Assembly (NCBI RefSeq): GCF_000015825.1
Contig: NC_009051.1
Location: forward strand, 1,420,695 to 1,484,694
Source of the DNA: Methanoculleus marisnigri JR1
GTDB lineage: Archaea; Halobacteriota; Methanomicrobia; Methanomicrobiales; Methanoculleaceae
Reading direction: 5' to 3'
Length of the DNA: 64,000 nt
The translations under genes were made by a program, and so were the position numbers. Position 1 is the stretch's first letter, and each line of letters begins with the position of its first letter. The notes under the pieces were generated by a model that made no database searches, had not been told where the DNA came from, and saw only the letters and a program-made list of their open reading frames with translations. Positions 39,225-64,000 of this stretch are shown here, piece after piece.

Positions 39225-39368
39225 GCCCCCCGGCCCTCACCGTCGGACGGATTTTTACCGGCCGAACTCCGGCACCTGCGGTCTTTGCCGTGGCGTTCCG
39301 ATCGCCCGGCGAGCAATCCTTTTTAACCTGGACGACCTAGTTGTTAGGGGTAAGACACATATTCTCGT

Positions 39369-39440
39369 GTCCCGGTAGGGTAGTGGATATCCTAGAAGCC
39401 TGCGGAGCTTTTGACCCGGGTTCAAGTCCCGGCCGGGGCG
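39369..39440 (+). tRNA. tRNA-Arg (anticodon GCG)
   Basis: The 72-nt sequence folds with a 7-bp acceptor stem (GTCCCGG with CCGGGGC), D-arm (GGGTAGTGGATATCC), anticodon arm AAGC-CTGCGGA-GCTT giving anticodon GCG, and T-arm CCGGG-TTCAAGT-CCCGG. The discriminator is G and CCA is not encoded. A T-rich terminator follows. Confidence 0.94.
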
Positions 39441-39452
39441 TTTTTCGCTTTT
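39441..39452 (+). terminator. T-rich terminator after tRNA-Arg
   Basis: TTTTTCGCTTTT directly follows the mature tRNA end, the expected position for archaeal tRNA termination. The rest of the gap to 39754 holds an AT-rich promoter-like patch (about 39538-39552) for the fic gene and nothing else recognised. Confidence 0.55.
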
Positions 39453-47157: not shown

Positions 47158-48480
47158 CTACGGATGTAATCCTTCTTCAGAGAACAACTTCAGAATCTTT
47201 GCAGATGGATATGTGGACAATGAAGCAATCCCATTGGCGAGTTCTATGGGTAGGAGCGCTCCCTCATACCGATTGCTCAAAATTGTCAGGAGCGTGGCAA
47301 ATATTCTCTCCCATCCGATGAGATCTTCCGATCGGGGGTTTTGAGTGTACAAACCAAATGGGACATTCAGAACCATCATATGGTAATTGTTCAGCTTAAC
47401 AAAGACTTTTGCACCATAGTTTGTATCCTTCCCATACGGGGCCCCATTTTCTGGGCGGCATTGGATGTGTCTCTTGATGTAGAGGTCTTGCAGGATAAGA
47501 TAACTCATCGTTGGTGCATCTTTACCTATGAACTGCAGGTGATCGTAGAATGTCCCCGACTTTTCCTGTCCAATGATATGGATAGGATAGCCGTTCTCTT
47601 GGGCATAGGCAAGGAATAACCGAATTGGCTCAACGAGTTTTGAATACTGGGCACGAATTGAAAGAGGGCCATCTTTTAGGAAGAGGCACTCTGTCAACAA
47701 CTCGCGGTGGTTCTCCCAAAACAATCTGATCGCGGTGAATAGAAGAAGTGTCTCATGCAGGATCATATAGGTGGAGGCAATTGTCGGTGAAACTGCTTCT
47801 TCGCCCATTTCAAGATGGAAACCAAGAAAGTCAGTAATATACACTTCCTTTCCGCACGTGGGACACCTCCCGCATTCAGCATCGTAAGGTAAAGTGGTCA
47901 GATGTTTACTTCCTTCATGCCCATGCGGACATTCAAATTCGGGCAGACTCCTCTTAGTTTCCCCCCATTTCCTGTATGCAAGCCACTTGAGGGTCTCGAG
48001 GATTTGACCATTCATTCCAGGGGAGGTATCACAGATAGATTTGTAGATCGTTTGACGAACCGTATCGTAGATATTACTCCCTTCACTCCATGTGTTTCGT
48101 AGCGGGAGCAATGTTGCATGGAATATTACCGACTCTCGCAGGATGTCACGTAAAACAAATGGATGTGGGTTTTCCTTATCCACCCTTGCGAGTGCATGAG
48201 TATCAAGTTTTATCATGGCTGTTTTGATGAATGCTATGGAGGAGTAAGGAACGGAATCATGGTCAATCCTCTGCAGAGATCCGTCCACTGCAAAGATATA
48301 CTTGAGTGGTTCTCCAGGATCTAGCATCTCTTGCCATTCCACGGTCAGGCATTCATCAGGCACATACTGGCGTTTGAAACTCTCAAGTAACTCGTTAACC
48401 AGCGAGTAATCAAGTATATCCAGGTGACCCAGTCGGCTGGCATGTTCTCCTGGAAGTCGTGATCCCTGCTGATATGGCAT
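47158..48480 (-). CDS. nurA: NurA-family nuclease with an inserted zinc ribbon
   Basis: The 440-residue protein has the NurA catalytic strand KYIFAVDGSLQRID (metal Asp66, D-x-S) and the second conserved ECLFLKDGPLSIRAQYS (DG). A likely zinc ribbon inside (CPHGHEG ... CGRCPTCGKEV, about 184-217) is not in the core NurA fold. NurA is a 5'-3' exo/endonuclease that works with the HerA translocase. Its ATG directly follows the herA stop (TAAATG), so the two are translated together. It is longer than Pyrococcus or Sulfolobus NurA. Confidence 0.88.
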   Translation of the reverse strand: MPYQQGSRLPGEHASRLGHLDILDYSLVNELLESFKRQYVPDECLTVEWQEMLDPGEPLKYIFAVDGSLQRIDHDSVPYSSIAFIKTAMIKLDTHALARVDKENPHPFVLRDILRESVIFHATLLPLRNTWSEGSNIYDTVRQTIYKSICDTSPGMNGQILETLKWLAYRKWGETKRSLPEFECPHGHEGSKHLTTLPYDAECGRCPTCGKEVYITDFLGFHLEMGEEAVSPTIASTYMILHETLLLFTAIRLFWENHRELLTECLFLKDGPLSIRAQYSKLVEPIRLFLAYAQENGYPIHIIGQEKSGTFYDHLQFIGKDAPTMSYLILQDLYIKRHIQCRPENGAPYGKDTNYGAKVFVKLNNYHMMVLNVPFGLYTQNPRSEDLIGWERIFATLLTILSNRYEGALLPIELANGIASLSTYPSAKILKLFSEEGLHP

Positions 48481-50493
48481 TTATGCACACCTTCGTGAAG
48501 ACGGCTGGGGAGTGAACTTGTTTGCCTGAACAGGTATCACAAAACGGTGCGACCGAGTGAGCATCCGCACATACCCCTGCGTTTTTGTTTGAAGTATATC
48601 TTCGATGAGATCTTCGTATGCTACATTCAGATTTGCGAGTTTAGTGACCTCTGGCCTTGAGGAGATATGAGTGACAAAGAAATTCTCTGTTTGTGCAAGA
48701 AGATCCCGGCTAATGGTTGACGGAGATTGTGTGGAATATACCATACCGAGGTGATACTTTGCTCCTTCTTTTGCTATTCGGCTGTAAATATCAACAATTT
48801 TCTGTTCATCAGCAGGGAACAGATTATGGGCCTCCTCGAAGTATAGTTGAATATAATGATCGTTGAGCGCGTTTGACGAGAACAGATCAACCTGATGGGC
48901 AAAGATCTCCTCCGAAAGCCATCGCGAGAAATAGTTCATTACTTCAGGGTGTGCGTTGCTCAAATCAAGAATGACAGTCTGCCCCTGAACGACAAGTCTG
49001 ATTATCTCGGTCACAAAGTTTGTAGCGTTCGGATCGTGGTAGATCCTATAGCGCTGGATTTTCCTCGGGCCGCTGGCGGACCTGGATCGCGGAGCCAAGA
49101 ATCCAAGCAGCGCTTCGTCATCGGAGTCAAAGAGGTTGTGATCCCCAGAGGTTGAACGAAGCCTGTCACCTTCGCGATCTTGTTGCGCAAAGAGCTCAAA
49201 TTCGTGTGCGAGTTCTTCAAGAGTGCTTATCGATGGGGGCGGGGTTTGGTCCACCGATTGATACACAGCGGTTCGTGTCCGTCGTGCAAACCGTGGATTT
49301 ACGCCCCCTAACTCCCGAATTGTTTCCATGTTCGGGGTGAAACCAGCCCGATGGAGGATTGCCCAGTACATCAGGATCTTTCTTCGAGCACGGATCTGAT
49401 CTCCTGGGTTCTCCATCCCTTCAATCTGTTCAAATGAGGGGATTTCTACTGAAAGGAAACTGCTGACGTAGTCAGAGGGATGTCGCTCCTGTTCGCGTAT
49501 AAAGGTGTTGAGGATGTGATGCGAAAGATCGGGATGTGCATAGAAGTCTAATCGAAGCGGGCGTGATGGTGTATTGGCCTTGGGTGTAATGGCATAGATC
49601 TGGCAATCGTCAGCATGTGCAGTTGCCAGAGATGCACTGTCGTCCTGAGGGTTATCGTTGGCATACTCACCGTTAATGTCGAAAATGACCTGCCCCACAG
49701 TATGTGTCCGAGGGTCTTCCTCTGTGGGTGTCCTTCGGGTTGTTAGGATGACGCTCTCGGCAATGATCTTTACAATATTGCTTTTACCTGTGCGGGTTTT
49801 CCCAAACATGGCAGTTCTAGTGCCTTTGAAGTCGTTTGTGGATATTGCCACGGGAACTGTGTGCATAGTCTGCCCCGGCAATGGCAACCGACATTCGGTC
49901 AATCGCAGTGTTCCAATATCGCACCTGTTTTCCTGCGGGACCGTAGCGTTTATGATGAGATCGAGGAGTTCATCGCTGGGAGCATATACGAGGTATTTGT
50001 GGGCGCTCACGATGTTATTGAGGTCTCCGGAAAGTTCAACCGCATTCGGTCGGTCAGGGTGAGGGTAATACATTCCAAGGACTGCCGTCTTCAATGCACC
50101 CCACTGAAGCTCGCTTTGGGTGAATACATCCAGTTCAGGCATGGACTTTTTGTGCAACTCAAAGTAGGTCTGTTGCTTTTCCTGCTTCAGTGGTTCATCC
50201 GCTGTTTCAAGAACCCGTAGCAGGGAGAAATGAGGAGGATATTTCTCGTACTCGGCAGGGACCATGATGAGAAGTGAGTTCCGGGGGATGCCACCCACAG
50301 CCTTTTTGAAGGCATCCGATGTGATGATGGTTGCCGTAGTGTAGCCGATTTCAAGTACGTATCCCACAAATCGGGAACCCTCATAATCCCCGCTCGTGAC
50401 CTTTCGTTTTTCTTCCACTAGGAAATCCGAGAGTCTCCGTAGCGGGTGCTCCTGCATTGCCGCACTGCTGCAGAATGCCTGCATATTCATCAT
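48481..50493 (-). CDS. herA: HerA-like hexameric DNA translocase ATPase
   Basis: The 670-residue ATPase has an N-terminal HAS-barrel-like domain (VGYVLEIGYTTATIITSDAFKKAVGG), Walker A in AMFGKTRTGKSNIVK (231-238), Walker B VILDLSNAH, a second acidic element YFEEAHNLFPADE and the C-terminal arginine region of the FtsK-HerA class. Canonical HerA (about 500 aa) drives DNA through NurA. ATG 50493 overlaps the upstream methylase stop (ATGA). A longer upstream frame exists but lies inside the methylase gene. The N-terminal middle (about 250-500) is enlarged relative to repair-type HerA. Confidence 0.9.
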   Translation of the reverse strand: MMNMQAFCSSAAMQEHPLRRLSDFLVEEKRKVTSGDYEGSRFVGYVLEIGYTTATIITSDAFKKAVGGIPRNSLLIMVPAEYEKYPPHFSLLRVLETADEPLKQEKQQTYFELHKKSMPELDVFTQSELQWGALKTAVLGMYYPHPDRPNAVELSGDLNNIVSAHKYLVYAPSDELLDLIINATVPQENRCDIGTLRLTECRLPLPGQTMHTVPVAISTNDFKGTRTAMFGKTRTGKSNIVKIIAESVILTTRRTPTEEDPRTHTVGQVIFDINGEYANDNPQDDSASLATAHADDCQIYAITPKANTPSRPLRLDFYAHPDLSHHILNTFIREQERHPSDYVSSFLSVEIPSFEQIEGMENPGDQIRARRKILMYWAILHRAGFTPNMETIRELGGVNPRFARRTRTAVYQSVDQTPPPSISTLEELAHEFELFAQQDREGDRLRSTSGDHNLFDSDDEALLGFLAPRSRSASGPRKIQRYRIYHDPNATNFVTEIIRLVVQGQTVILDLSNAHPEVMNYFSRWLSEEIFAHQVDLFSSNALNDHYIQLYFEEAHNLFPADEQKIVDIYSRIAKEGAKYHLGMVYSTQSPSTISRDLLAQTENFFVTHISSRPEVTKLANLNVAYEDLIEDILQTKTQGYVRMLTRSHRFVIPVQANKFTPQPSSRRCA

Positions 50494-51335
50494 GAGGACA
50501 CCTCGTTTACGTGGTAGATCACCATTTCCCCAGGATCCGTTGTTATCTGTCCGGGGCTCGAACCGGTTCCTCTGTCGAGCCGGTACATAGAGTAGTCGTC
50601 GTATAGCGCGAGAATGTCCGGATGAGACGAGTTTGTCATGACCCACTGTACTCCACGCTCTGTAGCCTCACGAAGGCACGATGCAAGCCTCTTGTGATCC
50701 TCGAAGTTGAACTCGCCGAACATGTAATGAGCATGCAGCTGTTCACGTTCACCCGGGCGGTATGGGGGGTCAAGGTAGAGAAAATCCCCTTCACGGCATG
50801 AGGCAATGGTTTCCTCAAAATCGCAGCAAAGTAGAACTGCGTGCTGGAGTCGCTGTGCCACCGCACAAAGATCATCAGGCCCTATCACCCAACGTCGTTC
50901 TTGGCCTCCATATCCCACGTTAAATTCGCCGTTGTTGTTATGACGCCACATGCCTTTGAAGCAGGTTCGGTTCAGGTAGAGGGTTCGTGCGGCTCGCTCC
51001 AGAAGGTGAAGGTCATCACGGTTCAGGCTCCTTATTTTATAGTATCCTGCCTTATTTGCCGGATACCTGCTGTAGAGTTCCCAGACGACATCCGGGTTTT
51101 TTCTGATACCCAGATACAGATCGATTAACTCTCTATTGATATCAGCAAGGATCGCCTTTTCTGGATTTACATGGAAGAAGACTGAACCGCCCCCTAGAAA
51201 GGGTTCGACATATGTCCGGATGGATTGAGGCTCAAGAGGGAGGAGATGAGAGAAGTGACATACATACCTCTGTTTCCCCCCAGGATAGCGTAATAATGAA
51301 ATATTTTTCTCTATACTGGCTGTCTGGGTTAGCAT
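50490..51335 (-). CDS. D12-class DNA adenine N6-methyltransferase
   Basis: The 281-residue enzyme is an alpha-type Dam methylase: SLLRYPGGKQRY, the SAM loop YVEPFLGGGSVFF (43-54), GTCFKG-type target segment LNRTCFKGMWRHNNNGEFNVGYG (121-143) and the catalytic DPPY in FLYLDPPYRPGE (186-197). It methylates the N6 of adenine in a short site, probably protecting self DNA. ATG 51335 has AGGAG nine bases upstream; a TTG at 51341 is the alternative. It overlaps herA by four bases, so methylase-HerA-NurA form one operon. Target sequence is not readable from sequence. Confidence 0.93.
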   Translation of the reverse strand: MLTQTASIEKNISLLRYPGGKQRYVCHFSHLLPLEPQSIRTYVEPFLGGGSVFFHVNPEKAILADINRELIDLYLGIRKNPDVVWELYSRYPANKAGYYKIRSLNRDDLHLLERAARTLYLNRTCFKGMWRHNNNGEFNVGYGGQERRWVIGPDDLCAVAQRLQHAVLLCCDFEETIASCREGDFLYLDPPYRPGEREQLHAHYMFGEFNFEDHKRLASCLREATERGVQWVMTNSSHPDILALYDDYSMYRLDRGTGSSPGQITTDPGEMVIYHVNEVSS

Positions 51336-51479: not shown

Positions 51480-51923
51480 TTAGGGTTTTGCAGCGTCCAA
51501 GACTGTTTGGTAGTCCTCTTCAGGAATCACCCGCATCGCCTGTCGTATATGCCCGGTCCACATCGTTTTATTGGTAATAAATTTCAGCTTTGGGATGAGC
51601 GGCTTGAACTCCACTGGGAGGTCGAAAACGTTTACGGGCTTCAGTTTTATCCGGTATGGGAAGACCTCGTCACCCATCTGCTCGGGTGCGACAAACACCT
51701 TCGTTCGCTCCTCATAGGGCTCTGATACTACCTCGAATGCTCCGGTCACAGCGGATGGCAGCAGCGTGTCCCCCTCTTTCTGCTGTGATACATAGATGAG
51801 GACCGTGTCGCCAGGCTTCACCCGTTCAATAATGCTCTTATTGCGCTGAGGGACACCCCAGATATTCTTCTTCCGGGTGATCTCCCAGTTTGTCCGGTTG
51901 GATATTGCGAGCCAACGTGTCAT
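51480..51923 (-). CDS. EVE-domain protein
   Basis: The 147-residue protein begins MTRWLAISNRTNWEITRKKNIWGVPQRNKSIIERVKPGDTVLIYV, the EVE fold (PUA-like barrel) signature, with DTLLPSAVTGAFEVVSE, PYRIKLKPVNVFDLP and NKTMWTGHIRQAMRVIPEEDY. EVE domains flip out modified bases, often in defence proteins or as stand-alone readers. The ATG at 51923 is the family start. It is 47 bases after the res stop, so it is probably the last gene of the type III operon. Whether it reads DNA or RNA modification is not shown. Confidence 0.87.
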   Translation of the reverse strand: MTRWLAISNRTNWEITRKKNIWGVPQRNKSIIERVKPGDTVLIYVSQQKEGDTLLPSAVTGAFEVVSEPYEERTKVFVAPEQMGDEVFPYRIKLKPVNVFDLPVEFKPLIPKLKFITNKTMWTGHIRQAMRVIPEEDYQTVLDAAKP

Positions 51924-51970
51924 GCAGAGTGATTGTAAGAAAATGACGTAAATGTTTGGTTTGATAGTTC

Positions 51971-54900
51971 TCATGAGAGAACGAATTCAAACAACTCACT
52001 AATGAAGTTCGATTGATAAAGGGAAAGGACATGGTGCTTCTTCCGCTGCTCTTTCGTTTTGTAAAGAGACGTCTCAGCCACCGTGCCCGGCTGGCTCACG
52101 GAGATGATGAAGGAGTCGAGTGATATTCCGCATTCAATGCCTTTATTCCTGTACGTTGCATTGACTTTCCGCTCGATCTCCTTGATATCCTCTGCAAGTT
52201 GCACCTTTTCATCTTCAGGCCCGGGACTGAACACCATCCCATGCGGCTCAAGGAAGACGATATGCTGCTTGCTGGCGTCGACCACCCACATGATGAAATC
52301 CGGGTAGAACCACGAATATTTGTAAAAACCTACGCCGGTTTTCGGGATGTTGCGAAGCAGATAGATCTTTTTTCCGTCGAAGAGATCTGCATGGTCATTG
52401 ATGTAGTTCTTAATCCCCTGCACCAGTTTTTCTTCACCCTCATTGAGCCCTTCCGGGGAGATTGCGGCGATTTTACTCGAAGCCTTACTGGTTTTTGCGA
52501 GCAGCGGCTGATACAGGTGGTTCTGGAAGAAGACATTGGTGACGAACTTGGTGTTCTCGTCCGCATAGATCCGATCGACCTGCCGGGCAAGCGCATCGAT
52601 TGCCTCGATTACGTCCGTCTCGTTTTCCCGCATTTTTACGACGTACTCCTTGAACTCGAAATTGCCATGTGACTCCGAAAGGCGCTCGATCCAGATGTTC
52701 TCCATCATCCATGCGTTCTTCTGCCGGCTGTACGCAGCCTGGAGCGCCTTTTTCAGGACAAGCACGATGACGTCCTGCAGTTTCTGCACGTCCCCAAATG
52801 ACTCAGGGTTGATAACATGGTCGGCACAGTACAGGGTGTAGCGCCCGGGGTCTTCTATGGTCTCCCGTAACAGGGTTTTGTCGAAGACCATGTTCTTCCA
52901 GCCCTTGCTGCTCTTGTGCTCGAGGAGGGTGAAGTACACCGCGTCCCAGTCAACGAGATCCAGGTAGCGCGGGTCGATTGAGACGGGGTCGGGGCGGGAG
53001 TCGGCTTCCAAACCTTCGTAATACACGCTGTCCTCACTCTCCACTTTGGCGAGGAGATCAACCTTTACCGGGACGATGTGATCTCCAGTCAGGACGAACC
53101 GTCGTTTCCTCTCGAATCCGGTCTTCTCCCAGTGGGGAATGAGCAGACCTTCGCTGAGGTGATCCTCGCAGACCTTGATTGCAATATGTCGTTCGACGGT
53201 CTTGTAATCATCAACGCCTTCGATGGTGAGGAACTCGCGCAGGTAGCCGATGTACTTGGCGTCGACCCCGAAGATGTTGAGCGTCTCCAGGAGCGGGAGA
53301 TCCAGGGGTTGATCCCCGGCATCGTTGGTGCTGCGTTTGAGGGAATTGTTCCTGCCCTTGAGCCGGACCCCGCGCCCGAAGAGCTGGATGATCTCGGTGC
53401 CTTCGCTCTTCCCGATGTTGATGAGCCCCATGCAGGAGACCCGGTAGCAGTCCCAGCCTTCGATGAACTTTTTCGCACCGATGAGCACGTTCACGGTGGA
53501 GTCCGGGGCGTCGATGGCGCGGAAAAGTGATGGATGATCGATTCTCTCGATACCAATCTGCGGCTCATGCCCTTCGACAAGTTTTATGAACTTCGTTGCG
53601 TCTCCAACGTAGATGTCCCCAAAGAAGTCGCTGTCGCCGCTTTTGAGACCGATTTCCCCATCAGTGCCCTTCAGGAGCACAAGGGTCAGACCAGCGGGTT
53701 CGGCGCAGCGGAAGATGCGGCCAAGCATGTCGCCGTAGATCTCCTCCGCGCTCAGCCCACGCTCCCTGAGGTAACGGAGGCGCTGCTCGGGATAGGCCGG
53801 ACTGAAGATGTCGTGCTTGGTTTTTTCGTGGAGAAGGCCGGATTTTCCCTGGAGGAACTCATCCGTGGTCCGGGTTATCCAGTCCCGTTCGGTGAGAACC
53901 TTCTGCAGGAACCGGACGACCGTGAGCACGTCGGACTTGGTGCCGGAGACATTGACCTTGCTCCCCACGAATATCCAGAGCGGGTCGGCGATGTTGTACT
54001 CGGCGGTGGCGACGTCCTTGAGATCCTCGAAGACCAGTTTCTGCTCGTAGTAGGTGAGGAGGTTTGCGAGGAGCACCCGGTCCGTTTCGTACGTGGATTT
54101 GTTGACGTTGAGGATGCGGTACTCCTTGCCATAGCCGTCGTTGTAGAAGTACGGGTAGGAGTAGTCGAAGAGGATGGTCTTGGCAAATTCGGCGAGGTTG
54201 TCGTTATCGCCTCCTGAAGCCGCCGCCTGCCCGAATGTGGCGCTGTACTCGAAGGTGAAGCCTTCGCGGGCAACTTCACGCCGGAACATCTTCCACTTCT
54301 CACCGCCGCTGCCCTTATGCGCTTCGTCCACGAAGACGAGGTTCTTCCTGCCGAAGCTCTCGATGTCCACCCGCCTGAGGCCGCCGTCCTGTTTGTCCTC
54401 GGTGAACCGGGTGATCTCGATGACGTTCACGGCCTCCTCAGACTGCCGCTGGAAGTAGCCGCCGAGCCCGGTGGCGTCGAACTCGGTACACGGGATGCCA
54501 CTTTTCTTCATCTCCCGGAGGTGCTGCGCGGTGAGGTCGCTATTAGGGGTGATGAGGAGGATGCGGTCAATGTCCAGCCGATGGGGTCCTTTGTTGTAGT
54601 GCTGGAACTGGAGGTAGGCAAGATGGATGAGGAAGGTCTTGCCCGACCCGGTCGCCATCCAGTAGGCGCACTTGCGGAGGTCGTCCATGCCGGGCATGTA
54701 CCGCTCGTAATACTCATAGGGGTCTAGGACGGATGGAAATGCCTCTTTGATATATTCCTTCACCGCCTCCTCGACCAGGGAGGCGAGTCTCCCGGGGCTC
54801 TGGAAGTAGCGGTCCAGGTAGGCCTCGGTGAAAAGGGCGGCAAGCCACTGGTAGTACTTGAGGTTGATGGGAACGTCGCGGTGGACGTTGATGCGGTGCA

Positions 54901-55183
54901 TGTGCCGCACAATATTGTCGTCGTAGTTGCGCAACTCGTCGAGCGTGACGCCGGCGTCTTTCCGGAACCGGGTGTCGCTCTTGAGGACGTGGTAGTAGTG
55001 GGTGTGCCCGTCCTCACCCTCGCCCTCCTCGACGCCAGCGAGGGCACCCTGGAAGTCCTGGAAGGACTTCATCCCGAAGAGACGGTACGCAAATGCGCAC
55101 TTGACCAGCCACGGCCGGAGTCCCTCCTCCTTCGATGATTTCCCGGGCTTTTGCCCTTTCTTTCGTCCCCGCTGTGCCGCCAC
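51971..55183 (-). CDS. Type III restriction enzyme, Res subunit
   Basis: The 1,070-residue helicase-nuclease has motif I MATGSGKTFLIHLAY, motif II NLVFVDEAHKGSGG, motif III-like FTFEYSATFGQA, and motif VI region TEIIQLFGRGVRLKGRNNSLKR. A C-terminal PD-(D/E)xK-type end reads YSWFYPDFIMWVVDASKQHIVFLEPHG, where the third catalytic residue is a His rather than Lys in the usual spacing. Res cuts DNA together with Mod after ATP-driven sliding between sites. GTG 55183 is chosen, with GAGG before it and four bases after the mod stop; a long upstream frame is only a shadow of mod. GC-rich like the chromosome. Confidence 0.92.
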   Translation of the reverse strand: MAAQRGRKKGQKPGKSSKEEGLRPWLVKCAFAYRLFGMKSFQDFQGALAGVEEGEGEDGHTHYYHVLKSDTRFRKDAGVTLDELRNYDDNIVRHMHRINVHRDVPINLKYYQWLAALFTEAYLDRYFQSPGRLASLVEEAVKEYIKEAFPSVLDPYEYYERYMPGMDDLRKCAYWMATGSGKTFLIHLAYLQFQHYNKGPHRLDIDRILLITPNSDLTAQHLREMKKSGIPCTEFDATGLGGYFQRQSEEAVNVIEITRFTEDKQDGGLRRVDIESFGRKNLVFVDEAHKGSGGEKWKMFRREVAREGFTFEYSATFGQAAASGGDNDNLAEFAKTILFDYSYPYFYNDGYGKEYRILNVNKSTYETDRVLLANLLTYYEQKLVFEDLKDVATAEYNIADPLWIFVGSKVNVSGTKSDVLTVVRFLQKVLTERDWITRTTDEFLQGKSGLLHEKTKHDIFSPAYPEQRLRYLRERGLSAEEIYGDMLGRIFRCAEPAGLTLVLLKGTDGEIGLKSGDSDFFGDIYVGDATKFIKLVEGHEPQIGIERIDHPSLFRAIDAPDSTVNVLIGAKKFIEGWDCYRVSCMGLINIGKSEGTEIIQLFGRGVRLKGRNNSLKRSTNDAGDQPLDLPLLETLNIFGVDAKYIGYLREFLTIEGVDDYKTVERHIAIKVCEDHLSEGLLIPHWEKTGFERKRRFVLTGDHIVPVKVDLLAKVESEDSVYYEGLEADSRPDPVSIDPRYLDLVDWDAVYFTLLEHKSSKGWKNMVFDKTLLRETIEDPGRYTLYCADHVINPESFGDVQKLQDVIVLVLKKALQAAYSRQKNAWMMENIWIERLSESHGNFEFKEYVVKMRENETDVIEAIDALARQVDRIYADENTKFVTNVFFQNHLYQPLLAKTSKASSKIAAISPEGLNEGEEKLVQGIKNYINDHADLFDGKKIYLLRNIPKTGVGFYKYSWFYPDFIMWVVDASKQHIVFLEPHGMVFSPGPEDEKVQLAEDIKEIERKVNATYRNKGIECGISLDSFIISVSQPGTVAETSLYKTKEQRKKHHVLSLYQSNFISELFEFVLS

Positions 55184-55187
55184 GCCC

Positions 55188-58100
55188 TCACGCTCCCATG
55201 CACTTCTTGAACTCGGGCTCGATGGGCGTTGCCCGGGGTGCGAAGCAGTGGCCGTTGACGTAGAGCACGCCGGTGTCGGGGAACTCCCTGAGAATCTCGT
55301 CGGTGATGAACGCCGCGTCCGCTTCGAGCGCCTGCTCGTGCCCTGCGGGGTTCTTCGGGGAGTTGCGCCAGACGATGGTGGCGACCTTACCATCGGGGAG
55401 GGCGCCGTGGACGACCCGGTAGGTGAGACCGCCCTGGTGCCGGACCACCCGGCGCCGGACGTGCAGCCCGAGGAGATAGTTGAAGGTCTCGACAAGGTCC
55501 ACGGTCACTTCCCGGAACCCGTCCTCGTCGACCGGGACATGGTTGAACCCCACATCGCGGCGGATCCGGAGAGTGTAGGCGAACGGCGTCGCCAGCCGAT
55601 CCACGTTCAGCCGGCAGAGGCTCTCCCGGGTCTCGACGTCGAGGAAGTAGCGGAGCATGTAGTCGCTCATGCCGAAGATGGTGGCCTGCACGTGGCCGTC
55701 CCGGTCAAGGAACTCGATGTTGTTGAGCGTGTCCTCGTATTGCTCGAGTTCCATGTACTTGAAGATGTGGCTCTGGCCGTCGGCGTCCTTGGGGTTGCCG
55801 TCTTTCCAGTTGGAGGAGTACATGACTTTCTGGATGCGGGGTTTGATGATAAAGTCTAAATAATCCCCTAATTCGATTAAAACATATTTACGTGTCGATG
55901 TTTGTGTTTTATTAATCTCTAACACGGATTGCCCAGTAGTGCCGGATCCTGCAAAAAAATCCAGAATGATATCTTCTTCTCCCGACGAGATGTGAAGGAT
56001 ATCCTTAATTAATTCAGGAGATTTTGGATTATCAAACTGAACCTCTCCCAACAGTTTTTTATATGCATGTGTTCCATAGTCGCTGGAATATTTTGTGTCA
56101 AGCCAGATGGATTTTGCTTTTGTACCCTTTTCCTCACCATCTATTAGCAGATAGTCCTTTTGAAAAACGTCGTATTCATCCCGTGTAGATACCTTTTTTA
56201 TTAAAATTTTTTGGATATTTTCGCGGACGGTTTCTTTTTTCCACCTCCATCGACCATCCGAACCATCTGAAAGTTTTGGTAAAATTTTGATAAAGCTGCC
56301 ATTTCCCTCTAATGAGATTTCTTTATTACTTGGATTATAGTAAATAGGATAATACAAATTTGGTCTATCTTCTCTTCTAGCACCAGCTCCTCTCTTTCTC
56401 AAACCTTGTAAACGATAAGGTCCATTATCGTCCCTTTCAGCATACTCTTGCCGATAATTATCAGGCAGAGGTAAGTCAAATGCTTTAAAATCGTTTCTAA
56501 TATACATTAGGAGATTTTCATGGGCAGTAGCGATGTTTGCACGATCACTCCTACCTTTTAAATTGTTAACGACTGAAATAGTTGATATAAAATTTAAAGA
56601 GCCAAATGTAGAATTCATTAGGGATCTAAGGTTAACTATTTCATGGTCATCAATGCTCGAAAATAGTGCCCCATGATTGGATATTATGGTGTGCGCGAGA
56701 TTTAACCGATCCCCCATCATACTCAACCAGCTGCTGTGCTGGTAGTTATCCCGGTAGACGAACTCGTCATTCCCCGTATTATACGGCGGATCGATGTAGA
56801 TGCATTTCACCTGCTCCCGGTACCGTTCCTGCAGGAGGTTCAGGGCCTGCCAGTTCTCGCTCTTGATCATCAGCCCGCCGATGGCCTCGTCGAGGTCCTC
56901 CACCGGCGTGCCGTCCGGGTGCTGCAGTTTTTCGAGCAGTCGGTCCGTGAAATCATCATCGAAGAGCGCCGTGTCGATGACGAGATAAGGGTGGCTCTGC
57001 AGGAACGCCTCATCGACCCGGTCGCCTGCAAGCGTCTTCTGTCCACTCTTCCCCTCCCCGATACCATAGAGGTTCCGCCACTCCACCAGTTGCCCCCCAT
57101 TTGCCAGGATCTCGGGGTAGAACTCCTCCGGCACGTGGTCGATCGTCATGCAGTAGCCGGCCCGCAGGACGAACTTCTTCTTCTCCCAGAGCGTCTTCTG
57201 GAAGTCCTCCAGCTGCGCCAGGAAGTCGATGATCCGGTGGGCGATGGACTTGAGCACCTTTGCCCGCTTCACGTAGCGCTCCACCGCCACCTCGTTCTCC
57301 GTCCCGAGATCGTCGAGCCGGAAGACCTCGTTCTTGATGTAGAAGTCCAGCTCCTGCCCGAAGAACCCGCCGAGATCCTTGTGGATGAAGAAGTCGCTCG
57401 TGTTCTCCTTCGTAAAGCTCATCACGTGCTTGTAGAGCCGCGGGTTCCTGTCGGTGTCCCGCTCGTTCGTCTGCAGGGCATCGGCGAGCCCCTTCGGAAT
57501 GCCATTGCCCCGCAGGATCTCCGCCACCAGACCGCCCACGATGTCGTCCTGGTTCGGCTTCTGGCGCCCGGCCCCGGGCGGGAAGCGACTGAGGAGGTCG
57601 TCGTCTGAGAGGGGTACCTGAGCGAACCTTGCGGTGAGCAGGTGCTTCTCATCGTCATACGTCACCGCGTCGTCGCCCGCGAGCACGAAGTACCGGCCCT
57701 TGCCGTTGCCGTTCGACTGCCCCTCGACCTGCACCACCTCAAAGAGCACCCGGTATGACCCCACATCGAACCCGTGGCTCTTCAGGAACCGGTCGGTCTT
57801 GATGTAGTACTGGTCCTTGTTCGCCCAGTGGAGCAGCACCTCCTCGCCGTTGTAGGGCACCGCGTACTTCTCGTTCGCCGCATACCGCCGGAGCGAGAGG
57901 AAGTCACCGTCCTTGTAATAACGGGAGAAGAACTCCTCCAGGTGGGCGAATATCTCTGCTTTCTGCAGGTCGCTCATCGAGGCTTCTTCGGCATCCCCCT
58001 GTAACTTCAGCCACTTCTCATGCAGTTCTTTGCCCTTTGCCGCCTTCCGGTACTCCTCCTTCAGGCCATTCGCATCGAGGGCATCGTCTCCGTACGTGTC

Positions 58101-58367
58101 GCGGATGGTCTGTTCGAGTTCCTTGAATTCTGCTATTATCTGGGTGCGGCTTTCCGTGTCGTACTTCCCAAACTCAGCATCGACAGCCTCGATCAGGTCT
58201 TTGTCCATGAACCGCGTGATCTCGTCCCGCTTCTGGTTCATGATCCGGTAAACACCGAAATCAAGGTCCGGCGAGTCTATCTGGAATAGTTCGGTAAGTT
58301 TCTGTCTCAACTGCTGCTTATGCCGCTTCAACCGTTCTTCCTGGTGTTTTGCCATCTTTGGATCCAT
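55188..58367 (-). CDS. Type III DNA adenine methyltransferase, Mod subunit, mosaic
   Basis: The 1,059-residue protein has a long N-terminal region (1-about 500, QEERLKRHKQQLRQKLTELFQI...) without a methylase motif. Motif IV CIYIDPPYNTG (DPPY at 526-529) comes next and motif I ILDFFAGSGTTGQSVLE (805-809) last, the beta-class order of Mod. The target-recognition region lies between them. Residues about 550-840 are encoded by AT-rich DNA (56281-56340 is 17 G+C of 60) in an otherwise GC-rich gene (55441-55500 is 40 of 60), so this part was probably acquired separately. ATG 58367; an inner ATG is at 58355. It precedes res by 4 bases. Confidence 0.92.
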   Translation of the reverse strand: MDPKMAKHQEERLKRHKQQLRQKLTELFQIDSPDLDFGVYRIMNQKRDEITRFMDKDLIEAVDAEFGKYDTESRTQIIAEFKELEQTIRDTYGDDALDANGLKEEYRKAAKGKELHEKWLKLQGDAEEASMSDLQKAEIFAHLEEFFSRYYKDGDFLSLRRYAANEKYAVPYNGEEVLLHWANKDQYYIKTDRFLKSHGFDVGSYRVLFEVVQVEGQSNGNGKGRYFVLAGDDAVTYDDEKHLLTARFAQVPLSDDDLLSRFPPGAGRQKPNQDDIVGGLVAEILRGNGIPKGLADALQTNERDTDRNPRLYKHVMSFTKENTSDFFIHKDLGGFFGQELDFYIKNEVFRLDDLGTENEVAVERYVKRAKVLKSIAHRIIDFLAQLEDFQKTLWEKKKFVLRAGYCMTIDHVPEEFYPEILANGGQLVEWRNLYGIGEGKSGQKTLAGDRVDEAFLQSHPYLVIDTALFDDDFTDRLLEKLQHPDGTPVEDLDEAIGGLMIKSENWQALNLLQERYREQVKCIYIDPPYNTGNDEFVYRDNYQHSSWLSMMGDRLNLAHTIISNHGALFSSIDDHEIVNLRSLMNSTFGSLNFISTISVVNNLKGRSDRANIATAHENLLMYIRNDFKAFDLPLPDNYRQEYAERDDNGPYRLQGLRKRGAGARREDRPNLYYPIYYNPSNKEISLEGNGSFIKILPKLSDGSDGRWRWKKETVRENIQKILIKKVSTRDEYDVFQKDYLLIDGEEKGTKAKSIWLDTKYSSDYGTHAYKKLLGEVQFDNPKSPELIKDILHISSGEEDIILDFFAGSGTTGQSVLEINKTQTSTRKYVLIELGDYLDFIIKPRIQKVMYSSNWKDGNPKDADGQSHIFKYMELEQYEDTLNNIEFLDRDGHVQATIFGMSDYMLRYFLDVETRESLCRLNVDRLATPFAYTLRIRRDVGFNHVPVDEDGFREVTVDLVETFNYLLGLHVRRRVVRHQGGLTYRVVHGALPDGKVATIVWRNSPKNPAGHEQALEADAAFITDEILREFPDTGVLYVNGHCFAPRATPIEPEFKKCMGA

Positions 58368-58518: not shown

Positions 58519-61464
58519 TTACACTTTCAGTCGCATCTTATTGAAGTCCTCCTCAATCCTCTCTGCAATACTTATCACTTTTCTCTTTACGATATTGCGA
58601 TCTATGTCGTCAACGATAATGTTATATTTGCTCCTCAAAAATCGCTTTATATTGTGATCTCCAAGCGTATAAAGCAACCTTTCGTAATCTGGTTTTGATT
58701 CGAAGCCCTTTGCCAGACAAACAAGTGCTTTTTGATAAAAGTAGTCCGCATTTTTCTGATCCCTACGGGCAACACGAGTGTATGCTTGGGTTAAATAATT
58801 GTAGTCTATAGCATTGTGATAAAGATCGTCATCATTTTGTGGCTGATCAATAACATTGGCTTCGAATATTTTAATCGCTAATTTTACATATTCATCCGCC
58901 ATTATAAAATGATCCTGCTTATCAGGGTAATTTGCTAGTTGACCGAGATTTTTTTCAATCTCACCTAATTTTAAGTAAGATGATCCAATATGGTCCCTAA
59001 CAGTTCTTTTGGATCTTTCGTCAGTGTACAGCAATAAGGCCTTCTTATTATAGCCTATGGAATTTAAGACATATTGGGCAATCTGTTGTTCAGTTCCTCT
59101 AAGTTGCTCCCAATATGCAAGTTTCGTGTAAGTAATTGGATTATCGGGATCAAATTCAATCGCCTTCTGGAAGGAGGAACGGGCTTTATCATCATCTTCC
59201 AAAAATTTGAACTCAAATTCAGCAAGTTCTCTCCACGCAATAGCGTTTTCAGGGAAGAATTGAATGCACTTTTTATAATAATCGTGGGCATAGGTGATCG
59301 AACCTATACGGATGAAGGATTCAGCTTTCTGGATCAATTGCCGCAGATGAATTTCATCAGCATCACAAGGAAATGCGGAATTTTGACTTGAATCCTTAGG
59401 TTTTTGATCAAACCCTAGATTGAGAATTCTCCACTGTGTGGCAAATTCCTCCTCTTTGTGAGGATATTCTATTAATTTGTGTTTGACAAATGCGTGAATT
59501 GGAGGTAACAGAGACAATACGGAATTTTCTAACTCACTTTGCACGATGAAAGAACGTTGGGTCAATTCTTCCTTTGCAGTTAAGAAATCTGTGTTATCAA
59601 CAATACTGCACATCTGACGCACTTGAGAGAAACTACACGTACCATTGGCTACAGTTACGGCCATGAGTATATCTTTTGCCAAATCCGAGAGTTCTCTCCA
59701 CTGGAAGTCGCAAATGAAATTTAAAGCTTGCTCATATGCTTGGATCTCTCCTTTACTCAGTTCTTTGAGTGTGTAGCCTCTTGCTAGAAGTTGAACAACA
59801 AAAATGATCAGAAGGGGGGACTTCGCACTTATGTTTGCAATTTGTTTCAGTGCTGACTGATTAGAATAACGATTTAAAAGCCCCAAACGATCTAATTGTT
59901 CAGAGATCAATTGCTGAGCTTCATCGTCTTCCATCGATCCAACTGGTATAACATACTGACCAAATGTATAGTCATCAACCCTCGATGTGATTATAAATTT
60001 TATCCCACTTTTGACATCGCGAAGAAGAACGTCAAGATAAGCCCATAGAGAATTCTTATCCGCAACCGTTTCAAGATTGTCGATTACCAGCAGAGTTGAT
60101 TCATAGCAGTTCAAAATTCCGCAGATAAGATTTCTTTTACTTTCCTCTGAGTGATCAATATACTGAATATTGTTTGTGACGTATAAAATGCAATCCAAGA
60201 AGTCTTCAAGACTGTGAAATGATGAAGTAAATTCGTTTATCTTCCCTTTCTCAAACAGTGTCTCTTTAGCCGATATCCATATGATAAGATCATAGCATAG
60301 ACTATCTATTTCCGTTAACTCAGGGTTTGTAACAATATCCCAGACAACTTTCTTTACTAATTCCGTTTTCCCATAGCCTCCCCCTCCGGATAACGATATA
60401 GAGAAAGCACGAGGATGTTCTAATCTTTCAAGTAACTCAAGTTCTTTTTTCGGCCTGCCAACATAGTAGTCACAAAGGTCAGGGAAATTATGAATTATTC
60501 CTCCATCCTGGCGGATCTGCCCGAATTTTTGTTTCAACGTCAACCTAATGCGATCGTTTTGAGCCTCAACCTGAGACAATGAAAAGACTTCTTCATGACC
60601 TTTGAAAGGTATTTTTTCTTCCTTAATTCCACCAGAACGCGGGAGACTGGTAAAGTACGCCGAATGATCACTCTGCATACTCCCATACACATAGATTCTA
60701 TCTTCTTTATCATCCAAAATTATCAGGTTAGTGGGATTTAAAAAGAGATCTTCCTCATCAGGAAAAGTTACATATGTTTTCGCAAGACACTCTGGTAACA
60801 GTGATGTTTCAGCCACCTGCATCCGTGAAAAAGTTCCAGACCGTGAATCCCATTGGTAAGTATTAATGTGTTCTCTCTGAATACTTTCAGGTTTAACAAT
60901 CTTTATGTCAACATCATTGAAAATATCGGAGACTGTTGCAATAACTGCGTCCTTTATGCCATGTTTTACAAGCGGATCTAACATCGTATTGTTATCCCAA
61001 TGATGGGCTCTAAAATTTCGTAATTCTTTCATCTTCTCAAGAAACCATGCATACTGAACCCTTCGTGGAAGATTGATAGAACAGGATTTGAGCCCATAAA
61101 TTTCTGTTACAATTTGCCGTATATTATCAATAGAGTTCTGCGGAAATTGCTTATTTAAGGATTTATTTAGCCTCTCGACAAACGGATCGTTCGTTTGACT
61201 GAAAACCAGGTAGCAATTTTGTGCAAGTTTCATCCAACTATCAAACGTCGGTTTTTGGAAATAATCCTGTATTAAGTTGGTGATGTCATTGCAAATTTGG
61301 ACGTTATTTTCTTTTATGTTCTTTCTATAGCGGATATATAACAGAATGCCTAGCGTCTTGTAGAATTCTTCCGTAAAGCGGTTAATCGCTTCAATAACCT
61401 CAATATTACTCTTGGCCTTATTGATTTCCTGAACTGCACCATCCAAATTTATGATTAATCCCAT
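58519..61464 (-). CDS. HEPN-STAND-TPR protein (putative NLR-like defence effector)
   Basis: The 981-residue protein has three parts. The N-terminal helical domain contains ELRNFRAHHWD with R149-N-x3-H154, the HEPN ribonuclease motif. The middle is a STAND/NB-ARC-like NTPase with Walker A LSGGGGYGKTEL (358-369), Walker B LLVIDNLETV (458-467) and the sensor FIITSR. The C-terminal region (about 715-930) has TPR-like helices (FIRIGSITYAHDYYKKCIQFFPENAIAWRELAEFEFKFLEDDDKARSSFQKAIEF). In known NLR-like systems the repeats sense a phage product and the N-terminal effector kills. AAGGTG precedes ATG 61464. The gene is very AT-rich between GC-rich neighbours. Confidence 0.85.
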   Translation of the reverse strand: MGLIINLDGAVQEINKAKSNIEVIEAINRFTEEFYKTLGILLYIRYRKNIKENNVQICNDITNLIQDYFQKPTFDSWMKLAQNCYLVFSQTNDPFVERLNKSLNKQFPQNSIDNIRQIVTEIYGLKSCSINLPRRVQYAWFLEKMKELRNFRAHHWDNNTMLDPLVKHGIKDAVIATVSDIFNDVDIKIVKPESIQREHINTYQWDSRSGTFSRMQVAETSLLPECLAKTYVTFPDEEDLFLNPTNLIILDDKEDRIYVYGSMQSDHSAYFTSLPRSGGIKEEKIPFKGHEEVFSLSQVEAQNDRIRLTLKQKFGQIRQDGGIIHNFPDLCDYYVGRPKKELELLERLEHPRAFSISLSGGGGYGKTELVKKVVWDIVTNPELTEIDSLCYDLIIWISAKETLFEKGKINEFTSSFHSLEDFLDCILYVTNNIQYIDHSEESKRNLICGILNCYESTLLVIDNLETVADKNSLWAYLDVLLRDVKSGIKFIITSRVDDYTFGQYVIPVGSMEDDEAQQLISEQLDRLGLLNRYSNQSALKQIANISAKSPLLIIFVVQLLARGYTLKELSKGEIQAYEQALNFICDFQWRELSDLAKDILMAVTVANGTCSFSQVRQMCSIVDNTDFLTAKEELTQRSFIVQSELENSVLSLLPPIHAFVKHKLIEYPHKEEEFATQWRILNLGFDQKPKDSSQNSAFPCDADEIHLRQLIQKAESFIRIGSITYAHDYYKKCIQFFPENAIAWRELAEFEFKFLEDDDKARSSFQKAIEFDPDNPITYTKLAYWEQLRGTEQQIAQYVLNSIGYNKKALLLYTDERSKRTVRDHIGSSYLKLGEIEKNLGQLANYPDKQDHFIMADEYVKLAIKIFEANVIDQPQNDDDLYHNAIDYNYLTQAYTRVARRDQKNADYFYQKALVCLAKGFESKPDYERLLYTLGDHNIKRFLRSKYNIIVDDIDRNIVKRKVISIAERIEEDFNKMRLKV

Positions 61465-61488: not shown

Positions 61489-64000
61489 TTATGCTCGCCA
61501 CCTGCAAATGCCCTGATAATCGCACCGCTCACAGACCGCTCCCGGACATGCCGTGAAGTCGCCCGAGAGAATCCGTCCGATATCCTCCTCTACACGTGCC
61601 ATCGTCCCTGCAACGGCCTGCTCGGTCACATCCACAGCGTCCACAGCAGCCTCCTCGAGGAATGCCACCGAACCCCGGGAGACAGTCTCGCCGAGCACGC
61701 AGAGGCCACGGGTGTAAAGTTGCACCTGGAGCGCCGAATCCTCGGGTGTTGTCGCCGTGTCGGAGGTCTTGTAGTCGCGCACCTCCACAGCATCCCCATC
61801 ATGGAGGATGACATCCACCTTCCCGGCCACAATGGCGTTCTGCACCGGGAATTCGACCCTCGTCTCCACTTCCCGGATCCGGAGCATATCGTCGCGGTAC
61901 TTCTCCGCAAATCTCATTAGATGGTTCTTCGCTGCGCGCTTAATCTTCTCCATTCGTCCCTCGGTCATGAACGGCATGTAGAAGTTCCGGTCCACTGCCG
62001 TTGCCACCGCAATCATCGGAGACAGATCCTCGTTCTTCATCAGGTCCGCAGCTTCCCGGAGGCAGAAGTGCAGAGTCTGCCCATATCCAAGGTAATCAGT
62101 GAGACCCGGCTCGTATCCCCAGATATGCCGAAGCCTGTAGAAGTAGCCGCACTTCCCGTAGTCCACAATCTCACCGGCAGAGAAGGTACGCAGCTCGTCC
62201 GCAGCGCCGCCGGTTGCATAATCATGATCCGGCAGTGTGTCTCTCTGTGAGAGGGGCTCGACGTGAGGCAGATCCTCGATGTCACCCACAAAAGCGCTTC
62301 GTCCTTTTCGTCGCCCGTTCATGGACGTGAAGTAACTCACCACGGCCACGTCCTTCGCCCGGGTCAGCGCCACATACATGAGTTTGCGTTCGCTCTCCAG
62401 GTCCCCCTCGTACTTCGCCACGTCGAAGAGCTCCGGGGATATGAGCCAGGTTCTCCCCTTGCCCACCATGCTTGACGGGAACCGTTGCCGGACCATGCAG
62501 GGCACAAACACCAGCGGCCACTCCAGACCCTTGCTCTGGTGGATCGTCACCAGTTGCACAGCGTCCACGCCACCGATGTCGTCGCCGGTCTGTTCCTCGT
62601 ACTTTGAGGACGCGTAGGTGTTCAGGTACCAGCACAGCCCTTTCAGATCGGTCTCCCAGTTCCTGCGCCGTCCCCCAAGCATAATTGCTGTCTCGTAATC
62701 CGTAAGGAGCGTGTTGAACCTGCCCAGATTCGCCATGATGACCGCATGGCGTACATCGTCAGGATCGAGCCCGTGGTACCCGAGCAGGACGAGCAGTTCC
62801 CCGAAGACTTGAGAGAAGTTATCGTAGGTACTGTTCAGCACCGAGTCCTTCCAACGACGAAGGTTCAGTACATCGGAAGCCTCCAGTGCCAGATCTGGAA
62901 TTCCCTGGTTCCAGTTCACCACTGCCTCTTCGAGCAGATCCTCGCCTCGGAGAGCAGGCAACCTTGACCACTTGCCCTGCTGCCAGAACCCATCTTCCCA
63001 CAGCCACGCAAACAACTGCCCTATGCCCAGGATCTCCGGGCGGCGGAACAAGCCCACTTTTCCGCCAACGACAAAGGGTATATCGCGGCGCCTGAACTCA
63101 TCGATGAAGGGGGGCGCCGAGGTGCTCACGCTCCGAAAGAGGAGCGCAATGTCGCTGTAACTGCATTTCTCTTCTCTAACAAGCGCCTGGATCTGATCCG
63201 CAATCCAGTCTACCTCGGTTATATCACTCTGCATCTCTGCCAGATACGCCCCGCCCTGCTCACGGCGAACCGGGTCCATGTGGTCGTAGTGCTGGTCCTC
63301 AAACGTGTCCGAGAACCCGTTAGCCGTCTCGATCACCGCTACGGTCGAACGGCGGTTCTCGGTTATGTGGATGGTGACTGCCTCCGGGTACCGCGTAGTA
63401 AACTCCTCGAAATACTGTTCGTCGGAGCCACGCCACTGGTAAATTGTCTGCCGCGGATCGCCGACAACGAAGATGCTCCCCCCCAGCCCTATCAGCCGGA
63501 TGAGTTCATCCTGTGCGTGATTAATGTCCTGGTACTCGTCAACAATGAGGTATTTTACGTGTTCGGCCACTTCAGGACGGTGCTGCAGGTTCTCCACTGC
63601 AAGCTGCACCATGCGGTTGAAGGTGAGCCGCTTGTGTTGATCCAGTGACGCCTCGTAACGGCGCAGTTTTTCAAGGAATTCTCTGTCTTTCTTTTTCCTT
63701 AGACCCTCTTCCGGGATCATCTCGCCGTAGTAGACATTCAGGGCATTGACGAAATCTTCACAGTTGGTAGCGTAATAACCGGATCTTCCGAGCCCCAGAG
63801 CCCACCCGACCCGCATAAGGTACGCCATCTCCTGTTTTTCATCAAGCACGCCCCAGTCCCCGTACCCGAAGTGCTCCTCCAGAAGACGATAGCAGTAGCC
63901 GTGAATGGTGCCAATGAACATCTCCCCGAGGCGGGCACAGATCTCATCTCCGCCAAGGTGCTTCACACGCTCGTACACACGGCTCTTCATACTCTGTGCT
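61489..64000 (-). CDS. UvrD-family helicase fused to a RecB-type nuclease (5' end outside window)
   Basis: The gene runs off the right end; AAQSMKSRV at the edge is motif Ia, so Walker A lies outside. Visible motifs are YLIVDEYQDINHAQDELI (II), VVGDPRQTIYQWRGSD (III), ENRRSTVAVIE (IV), AVQLVTIHQSKGLEWPLVFVP (V) and RKLMYVALTRAKD (VI). The last 260 residues are a RecB-like nuclease (VAGKVDVILHDGDAVEVRDYKTSD: D, E, DYK), with the cysteines CPGAVCERCDYQGIC plus one in YGKCGYFYRL expected to hold a [4Fe-4S] cluster, as in AddB and Cas4. It unwinds and degrades DNA. It is 24 bases upstream of the STAND gene on the same strand. Confidence 0.9.
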   Translation of the reverse strand, partial: AQSMKSRVYERVKHLGGDEICARLGEMFIGTIHGYCYRLLEEHFGYGDWGVLDEKQEMAYLMRVGWALGLGRSGYYATNCEDFVNALNVYYGEMIPEEGLRKKKDREFLEKLRRYEASLDQHKRLTFNRMVQLAVENLQHRPEVAEHVKYLIVDEYQDINHAQDELIRLIGLGGSIFVVGDPRQTIYQWRGSDEQYFEEFTTRYPEAVTIHITENRRSTVAVIETANGFSDTFEDQHYDHMDPVRREQGGAYLAEMQSDITEVDWIADQIQALVREEKCSYSDIALLFRSVSTSAPPFIDEFRRRDIPFVVGGKVGLFRRPEILGIGQLFAWLWEDGFWQQGKWSRLPALRGEDLLEEAVVNWNQGIPDLALEASDVLNLRRWKDSVLNSTYDNFSQVFGELLVLLGYHGLDPDDVRHAVIMANLGRFNTLLTDYETAIMLGGRRRNWETDLKGLCWYLNTYASSKYEEQTGDDIGGVDAVQLVTIHQSKGLEWPLVFVPCMVRQRFPSSMVGKGRTWLISPELFDVAKYEGDLESERKLMYVALTRAKDVAVVSYFTSMNGRRKGRSAFVGDIEDLPHVEPLSQRDTLPDHDYATGGAADELRTFSAGEIVDYGKCGYFYRLRHIWGYEPGLTDYLGYGQTLHFCLREAADLMKNEDLSPMIAVATAVDRNFYMPFMTEGRMEKIKRAAKNHLMRFAEKYRDDMLRIREVETRVEFPVQNAIVAGKVDVILHDGDAVEVRDYKTSDTATTPEDSALQVQLYTRGLCVLGETVSRGSVAFLEEAAVDAVDVTEQAVAGTMARVEEDIGRILSGDFTACPGAVCERCDYQGICRWRA

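Follow-up and report, generated by a model that had tools for sequence, protein, structure and literature searches.

A DNA methyltransferase-HerA-NurA gene triplet in Methanoculleus marisnigri JR1, a likely relative of the Thermus Tdp system with a probable role in restriction-modification-like defence

Introduction

In the Tdp system (TdpABC) of Thermus, self DNA is marked by phosphorothioation; TdpAB destroys the DNA of phages and is held back by self DNA that bears this mark. The system is built of a modifier (the PAPS-reductase-like TdpC), a HerA-type hexameric ATPase and a NurA-like nuclease (PDB 8wet, 8wfd, 8y1k), and in Thermaceae the TdpC-like (PF01507), TdpB-like and TdpA-like genes form a three-gene operon. 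HerA-family ATPases take part in other arrangements as well. The Thermus element ICETh1 has one operon for a HerA-family ATPase (TdtA), a methylase of the PF01555 type, a type IIG enzyme and a nuclease resembling NurA; efficient DNA transfer (donation) requires TdtA as well as this nuclease (PMC5365140, PMC7767461). HerA/FtsK ATPases are also tied to restriction in DndFGH and in the 'HerA/FtsK capture' systems, in whose description NurA goes unmentioned (PMC10853773). Here we report a locus in the archaeon Methanoculleus marisnigri JR1 that joins an adenine methyltransferase to HerA and NurA, and we compare it with these systems.

Results

The three genes form a compact operon in a low-GC island

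The window analysed here is a stretch of 64,000 nucleotides of the M. marisnigri JR1 genome. Its GC content drops from ~0.62 to 0.43-0.57 beyond 40 kb, adjoining a tRNA-Arg at 39.4 kb, and the island that begins there contains a minus-strand operon encoding a D12/Dam-family methyltransferase, a HerA translocase and a zinc-ribbon nuclease of the NurA type, in this order (Table 1). The three genes had been described in an earlier note on this sequence as overlapping or abutting, and the junctions are indeed an ATGA overlap between the methyltransferase and HerA genes and TAAATG between the HerA and NurA genes.

The methyltransferase matched PF02086 (E 6.5e-47) and the NCBIfam model TIGR00571 ('dam'; 199 bits, above the cut-off). 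Its DPPY and FxGGG motifs are intact, and DPPY is present in 45 of 45 relatives. GATC depletion provided no clue to the target of the methylase, since the window contains 496 such sites where 496.4 are expected, which is uninformative. HerA matched PF01935 in Pfam (E 3.2e-9) and has a Walker A motif (GKTRTGKSN), a Walker B motif (YFEEAH) and a large helical insert. The ORF caller places its start at a GTG at 50646, but the relatives and the ATGA start favour 50493. The resulting protein is enlarged, as had been proposed, its 670 aa comparing with 543 aa in the canonical HerA of the host. HerA residues ~107-134 (QQTYFELHKKSMPELDxxTQSELQWGAL) were modelled with low confidence and are among the best-conserved parts outside the ATPase; we regard them as a candidate contact or sensing element.

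Table 1. Features of the island and its border, in coordinates of the window.
Feature	Coordinates	Strand	Basis or remark
tRNA-Arg, beside which the low-GC island begins	39368..39441	+	same-anticodon tRNA-Arg flanks the island in L007
Sacsin/NO VEIN protein (PADLOC TmtA), 1625 aa	42111..46988	-	PDLC03972 E 1.5e-191, PF13020 E 1.7e-15
NurA-type nuclease, inserted zinc ribbon, 440 aa, RNase H-like fold	47158..48480	-	homologues, AlphaFold2, invariant residues
HerA/FtsK-type hexameric DNA translocase, 670 aa	48481..50493	-	PF01935, structure match to TdpA
D12-class (Dam family) N6-adenine DNA methyltransferase, 281 aa, first triplet gene	50490..51335	-	PF02086, TIGR00571
EVE-domain protein, possible modified-base reader, accessory	51480..51974	-	PF01878 E 4.1e-25
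Type III restriction Res-like helicase, start uncertain	51971..55495	-	PF04851; PADLOC REase_III E 2.8e-138
Type III Mod-like methyltransferase	55188..58367	-	PF01555 E 9.1e-30
STAND NTPase, NB-ARC and TPR repeats, island neighbour	58519..61464	-	PF00931 E 1.4e-9
UvrD helicase with C-terminal PD-(D/E)XK nuclease, island neighbour	61489..63990	-	PF13361, PF00580, PF12705

The nuclease belongs to the NurA family

No Pfam, PADLOC or NCBIfam model matched the window nuclease, and the NurA model PF09376 misses it, matching in the host only the canonical NurA encoded elsewhere. The name NurA is nevertheless right, though not obvious, and is established by three lines of evidence: full-length tblastn homologues in plasmids carry the NurA annotation, the AlphaFold2 model (pLDDT 89) matches NurA structures, and the residues D66, E243 and D270 do not vary among 50 relatives. 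A search of PDB sequences with either the single NurA or an 8-row profile as query gave no relevant match. Profile-profile comparisons of the window-type NurA were not significant, either with TdpB-like proteins or with the canonical NurA of the host, and therefore its links to TdpB and to canonical NurA rest on structure. The extra zinc ribbon that had been noticed in the nuclease is real, with C184, C206 and C209 invariant in 50 sequences and C187 present in 46 of the 50. In the window NurA and its congeners the second of these cysteines is gone (G187); the adjoining H186 and H188 may substitute for it in the window protein.

The host encodes a separate canonical HerA-NurA operon

It had also been pointed out that Mre11 and Rad50 are missing from the locus, where a methylase is found instead. 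This is the case, as there is no Mre11-Rad50 linkage at the triplet. Elsewhere in the same 2.48 Mb genome, Mre11, Rad50, a canonical NurA (PF09376) and a canonical HerA are encoded together (L010; G000:C1, ~1.621-1.628 Mb), Rad50 being identified by position and ORF sequence only. The HerA and NurA of the triplet are accordingly not the sole copies in the genome (sole copies would have spoken for a role in general repair), and the separate operon indicates that the triplet is not the repair copy. The triplet and the canonical archaeal pair have the HerA and NurA folds and an RNase H-like nuclease in common, whereas only the triplet lacks Mre11-Rad50 and a PF09376 match and has a zinc ribbon and a methylase partner. 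Within the genus, no more than 3 of 35 genomes carry window-type NurA, and among relatives 4 of 100 do.

Tdp is the closest relative of the triplet

The best solved structure for the AlphaFold2 model of HerA (pLDDT 85) is TdpA, with Z 31.7 versus 28.8 for the next entry, and the NurA model scored Z 21.0 with TdpB versus 15.0 with Sulfolobus (Sso) NurA. Alignment of triplet HerA with Thermus TdpA-like proteins by hhalign gave E 5.6e-42, and the ATPase can be assigned to the TdpA type as its best match in both sequence and structure. An assignment of the nuclease to the TdpB type is less firm, resting on the structural match alone, as NurA profile A4 had no match in 49 other Thermaceae genomes and the profile-profile comparison was not significant. 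In the HerA tree the triplet proteins are sister to the TdpA-like proteins and not nested in them (supports 97/94 and 98/94), with some very long branches. Judged from these models and comparisons, Tdp is the closest relative of the triplet, which makes the triplet a variant and not a wholly new kind of system. The earlier note had missed this relative; that it did not recognise the combination as a named system agrees with our searches. PADLOC offered no name or description for the nuclease, and a literature search, mostly without subscription papers, found no paper on MTase-HerA-NurA or Tdp, although neither result proves absence.

The triplet and TdpABC share a modifier, a HerA-type hexameric ATPase and a NurA-like nuclease. 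They differ in the modifier, a D12 adenine methyltransferase in place of TdpC, and in gene order, MTase-HerA-NurA as against TdpC-TdpB-TdpA; the triplet HerA is longer than TdpA, and TdpB-like proteins have no zinc ribbon. None of the nine island genes scanned matched PF01507, and the PF02086 methyltransferase stands in its place. In one Thermaceae locus (L133:2879-5194) an apparent transposase interrupts the tdpB-like gene, and the adjoining TdpC-like and TdpA-like genes are open.

Other described systems resemble the triplet in part. The ICETh1 operon likewise combines a HerA-family ATPase, a NurA-like nuclease and a DNA methylase, but its methylase is of the PF01555 type and it comes with a type IIG enzyme, an integrase and a shown role in DNA donation; neither of these enzymes was detected in the nine island genes scanned, and the island extends beyond the window end. 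A Meiothermus-family HerA gene that overlaps a PF01555 methylase gene (L135:1439-4419) is possibly part of a TdtA-like module, and its product falls outside the clade of TdpA and triplet HerA. In HerA-SIR2 (Nezha) and HerA-DUF4297, a HerA structurally very similar to that of the triplet joins an effector in anti-phage complexes. These systems are defined without a methylase, and no SIR2 or DUF4297 effector adjoins the window HerA, its neighbour being the NurA-type nuclease. With type I, type III and ISP restriction-modification systems the triplet would share methylation-based self-marking and an ATP-driven translocating nuclease, as far as can be inferred, but its motor is a HerA/FtsK hexamer and not an SF2 helicase, its nuclease is an RNase H-like NurA and not a PD-(D/E)XK enzyme, and it has no specificity subunit. 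DndFGH and the 'HerA/FtsK capture' systems differ from it in nucleases and domain architecture (PMC10853773). As to MADS, only HerA among the six window proteins scanned resembles a mad gene (mad8, E 5.6e-12).

The triplet recurs across phyla and its proteins co-evolve

Scanning 84,980 species genomes with the NurA alignment only, we obtained 68 loci in bacteria and archaea, spanning 19 named phyla and including Heimdallarchaeota and Methanoperedens. Methylase-HerA-NurA triplets are present at 56 of them, in one case (L055) with the methylase cut at a contig end, and a further triplet (L064) has a frameshifted HerA. Eight loci are cut by contig ends, and in all eight HerA still adjoins NurA. 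Three (L069, L103 and L104) are without HerA and methylase, and in all three NurA is broken; for L069 only 2.9 kb of upstream DNA was available. In L104 (7872-10992, Thermovorax) a transposase-like gene splits NurA, and with HerA and methylase gone it appears as a decaying copy. Every intact NurA with enough upstream DNA is thus preceded by methylase and HerA in the same order, and the median gaps are 6 and 5 bp; L063 has ~2.5 kb of other genes between methylase and HerA. When the window, G005, G077, three IMG/VR viral contigs and three later finds are added to the scan loci, ~65 complete triplets were seen. The arrangement is therefore not unique to this genome (uniqueness would have refuted the original reading), and chance or an annotation artefact is ruled out by the number of recurrences.

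Among D12 triplets we found no locus with an intact HerA-NurA pair after loss of the methyltransferase, which fits toxicity of the effector alone. The triplet proteins co-evolve (Mantel r 0.885 for NurA-HerA, 0.73 for MTase-HerA and 0.70 for MTase-NurA). Phyla are intermixed in the NurA tree, and the distribution of the family is sporadic, with some copies in prophages and plasmids. One bacterial triplet used as query had no near match in E. coli genomes.

The methylase is exchangeable and matched to the nuclease

Further HMM searches of ~400 Acidobacteriota and ~400 Bacteroidota genomes, with members taken irrespective of their neighbours, added 17 NurA-family members, two of them (L163 and L164) near-identical. 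A DNA methyltransferase is found in the cluster in 17 of 17, so that a cognate enzyme is linked to the nuclease in these as in all testable D12-type relatives. Three are of the window's D12 type, three of a second D12 lineage, eight have an SPPY and two an SPPF motif, and one is an HsdM, supplied by a type I HsdRMS set downstream; those SPPY and SPPF enzymes that were scanned belong to PF01555. The partners of haloarchaeal and Deferribacter copies are methylases of the PF01555 type, whereas a copy in a Vibrio prophage is paired with a D12 enzyme.

These types follow the NurA subclades. In the NurA tree, copies with the window's type of D12 methylase make up one group and those with the second D12 type another, a well-supported branch separating the two, and the methylase class was switched at least four times on this tree. 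Within the D12 triplets, the methylase carries either K127 and G141 or N127 and P141, which covary without exception and split with the NurA clades, unmixed; the two positions presumably correspond to DNA-contacting residues of E. coli Dam, with which they align. The modifier is thus exchangeable but matched to the effector, as expected if the effector reads, or tolerates, the mark of its own methylase.

Two other arrangements were observed. Cyanobacterial plasmids (L012, L013 and L016) encode a set of XRE regulator, HerA and NurA, with no methylase seen adjoining. In two Bacteroidota loci (L159:2520-9989 and L160:2631-10100) two additional genes come immediately after an SPPF methylase, HerA and NurA; those of L159 encode an AAA ATPase and an HNH protein, resembling Septu (PtuA-PtuB).

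Defence genes surround the triplet

The protein genes of the island (UvrD-PD-(D/E)XK, STAND, Mod, Res, EVE, the triplet and sacsin/NO VEIN) are all on the same strand. TmtA is encoded directly downstream of the triplet and is kept in all three congeneric loci. The Res-like gene is syntenic in L007-L009; the EVE gene occurs in three congeneric loci, being present in L007 and L008 but not in L009, and G077 lacks it. Res-like genes further occur beside the triplets of L064, L077 and L101, and the Mod-like gene clusters by similarity with genes of L007, L009, L064, L077, L101 and L102, both being recurrent but optional. Related UvrD genes adjoin triplets in other phyla. Elsewhere the neighbours include Gabija (L106), UvrD and type III genes (L064, L077, L101, L102), IIG/ISP (L058) and a pAgo-like gene (L056), and, at loci not itemised, Kiwa, PARIS AriA and mad3. 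The sole control for our PADLOC tally of neighbours consisted of 19 proteins from the window itself, and generic homologies produced scores there too; as this control is weak, we rely on the named strong matches and not on counts.

Discussion

The triplet, for which we observed the operon structure, the conservation of all three genes, intact catalytic motifs, the folds, the relation to TdpAB, the matching of methyltransferase and NurA and a defence context, is probably a horizontally mobile three-gene defence system of the restriction-modification kind, in which the methyltransferase marks self DNA and HerA-NurA degrades DNA without the mark. A restriction-type reading had been put forward from this locus alone and is supported by the methylase linkage, the correspondence of methylase class and NurA, the defence-island context and the carriage by prophages. 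Our conclusion is that a HerA-NurA of the Tdp type probably works here with adenine methylation, in place of phosphorothioation, as the mark of self. The marking of self, the degradation of unmarked DNA and the reading of methylation are inferred, with no activity, methylome or phage assay behind them.

According to this proposal, the D12 methyltransferase would mark a specific site in the host's DNA with N6-methyladenine, and a HerA hexamer and a NurA dimer would assemble as in TdpAB and take in double-stranded DNA, NurA cutting the strands while HerA feeds them in. Methylated self DNA would be spared, most simply if translocation is halted or prevented by methylated sites, in the way that phosphorothioate acts on TdpAB, and unmodified phage or plasmid DNA would be destroyed. 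HerA and NurA have no obvious recognition domain, which leaves the reading step unexplained, and the HerA-NurA pairs of cyanobacterial plasmids, for which no adjoining methylase was seen, count against a defence marked by methylation.

The chief rival is a role in DNA transfer, as for TdtA of ICETh1, with HerA pumping DNA between cells, NurA trimming the ends and the methylase protecting the DNA from a companion restriction enzyme. That the ICETh1 operon unites such proteins, of which TdtA and the NurA-like one are needed for efficient transfer (PMC5365140, PMC7767461), means that HerA, NurA and a methylase together need not indicate defence, and some triplets do reside in prophages or other mobile DNA. 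However, no integrase, relaxase or type IIG family recurs among the triplet neighbours, those that could be named being defence genes, and the possibly TdtA-like Meiothermus HerA is separate from the TdpA and triplet clade. Moreover, NurA profile A4 matched none of 49 other Thermaceae genomes, only Meiothermus hypogaeus being found, where some matches are expected if the nuclease were of the ICETh1 type. We consider this role unlikely.

The EVE-domain neighbour in the window hints at a type IV-like or abortive system, in which HerA-NurA would target DNA that is modified, or bring about the death of the cell, with the methylase serving as antidote or trigger instead of providing a self-mark. 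SIR2 and DUF4297, which are other partners of HerA, act as anti-phage effectors. A cognate methylase within a type IV system would be self-destructive, however, HerA and NurA correspond to the class of their methylase, and the nearest relatives, TdpAB, spare modified DNA; this explanation is improbable.

Quite improbable, too, is that the triplet has no function of its own and merely forms part of a larger composite system, together with type III Mod-Res, UvrD and EVE. It would suit this view that the triplet is syntenic with Mod-Res in the window, G005, G032 and G077 and that UvrD-Mod genes adjoin the triplets of Desulfobacteraceae, Butyrivibrio, Lentibacillus and Ferruginibacter, but Mod-like and UvrD neighbours cluster in just 7 loci each, and the three viral contigs carry the triplet with neither of these nearby. 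Finally, a HerA-NurA pair for repair or end resection with an orphan Dam as accidental neighbour, which could appeal to the action of canonical HerA-NurA at DNA ends and to the NurA fold of the window nuclease, is very improbable and already contradicted by the canonical operon of the host, the rarity of window-type NurA among congeners (3 of 35) and a methylase linkage kept across many phyla.

Returning to the reading of the triplet as methylase-marked defence, a wider view is possible, which we hold tentatively and would not call probable: HerA-NurA may be the restriction engine shared by a broad class of defence systems that are guided by modification, with a self-mark that can be exchanged and with each effector clade tuned to its modifier. 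The marks would be m6A (two D12 lineages), probably m4C (SPPY/SPPF), HsdM methylation and, in Tdp, phosphorothioate. Marked sites would stop the processive shredder much as Chi stops RecBCD, so that a specificity subunit would be unnecessary.

For Thermococcus HerA-NurA, antiviral defence rather than end resection has been suggested (PMC12977600), and the triplet bears on this suggestion. If our reading is true, there would be a restriction-modification-like class in which a HerA hexamer and NurA take the roles otherwise played by an SF2 helicase and a PD-(D/E)XK nuclease, and Tdp and the triplets would be joined in one modular scheme, raising the testable question of how one translocating complex reads chemically different marks.
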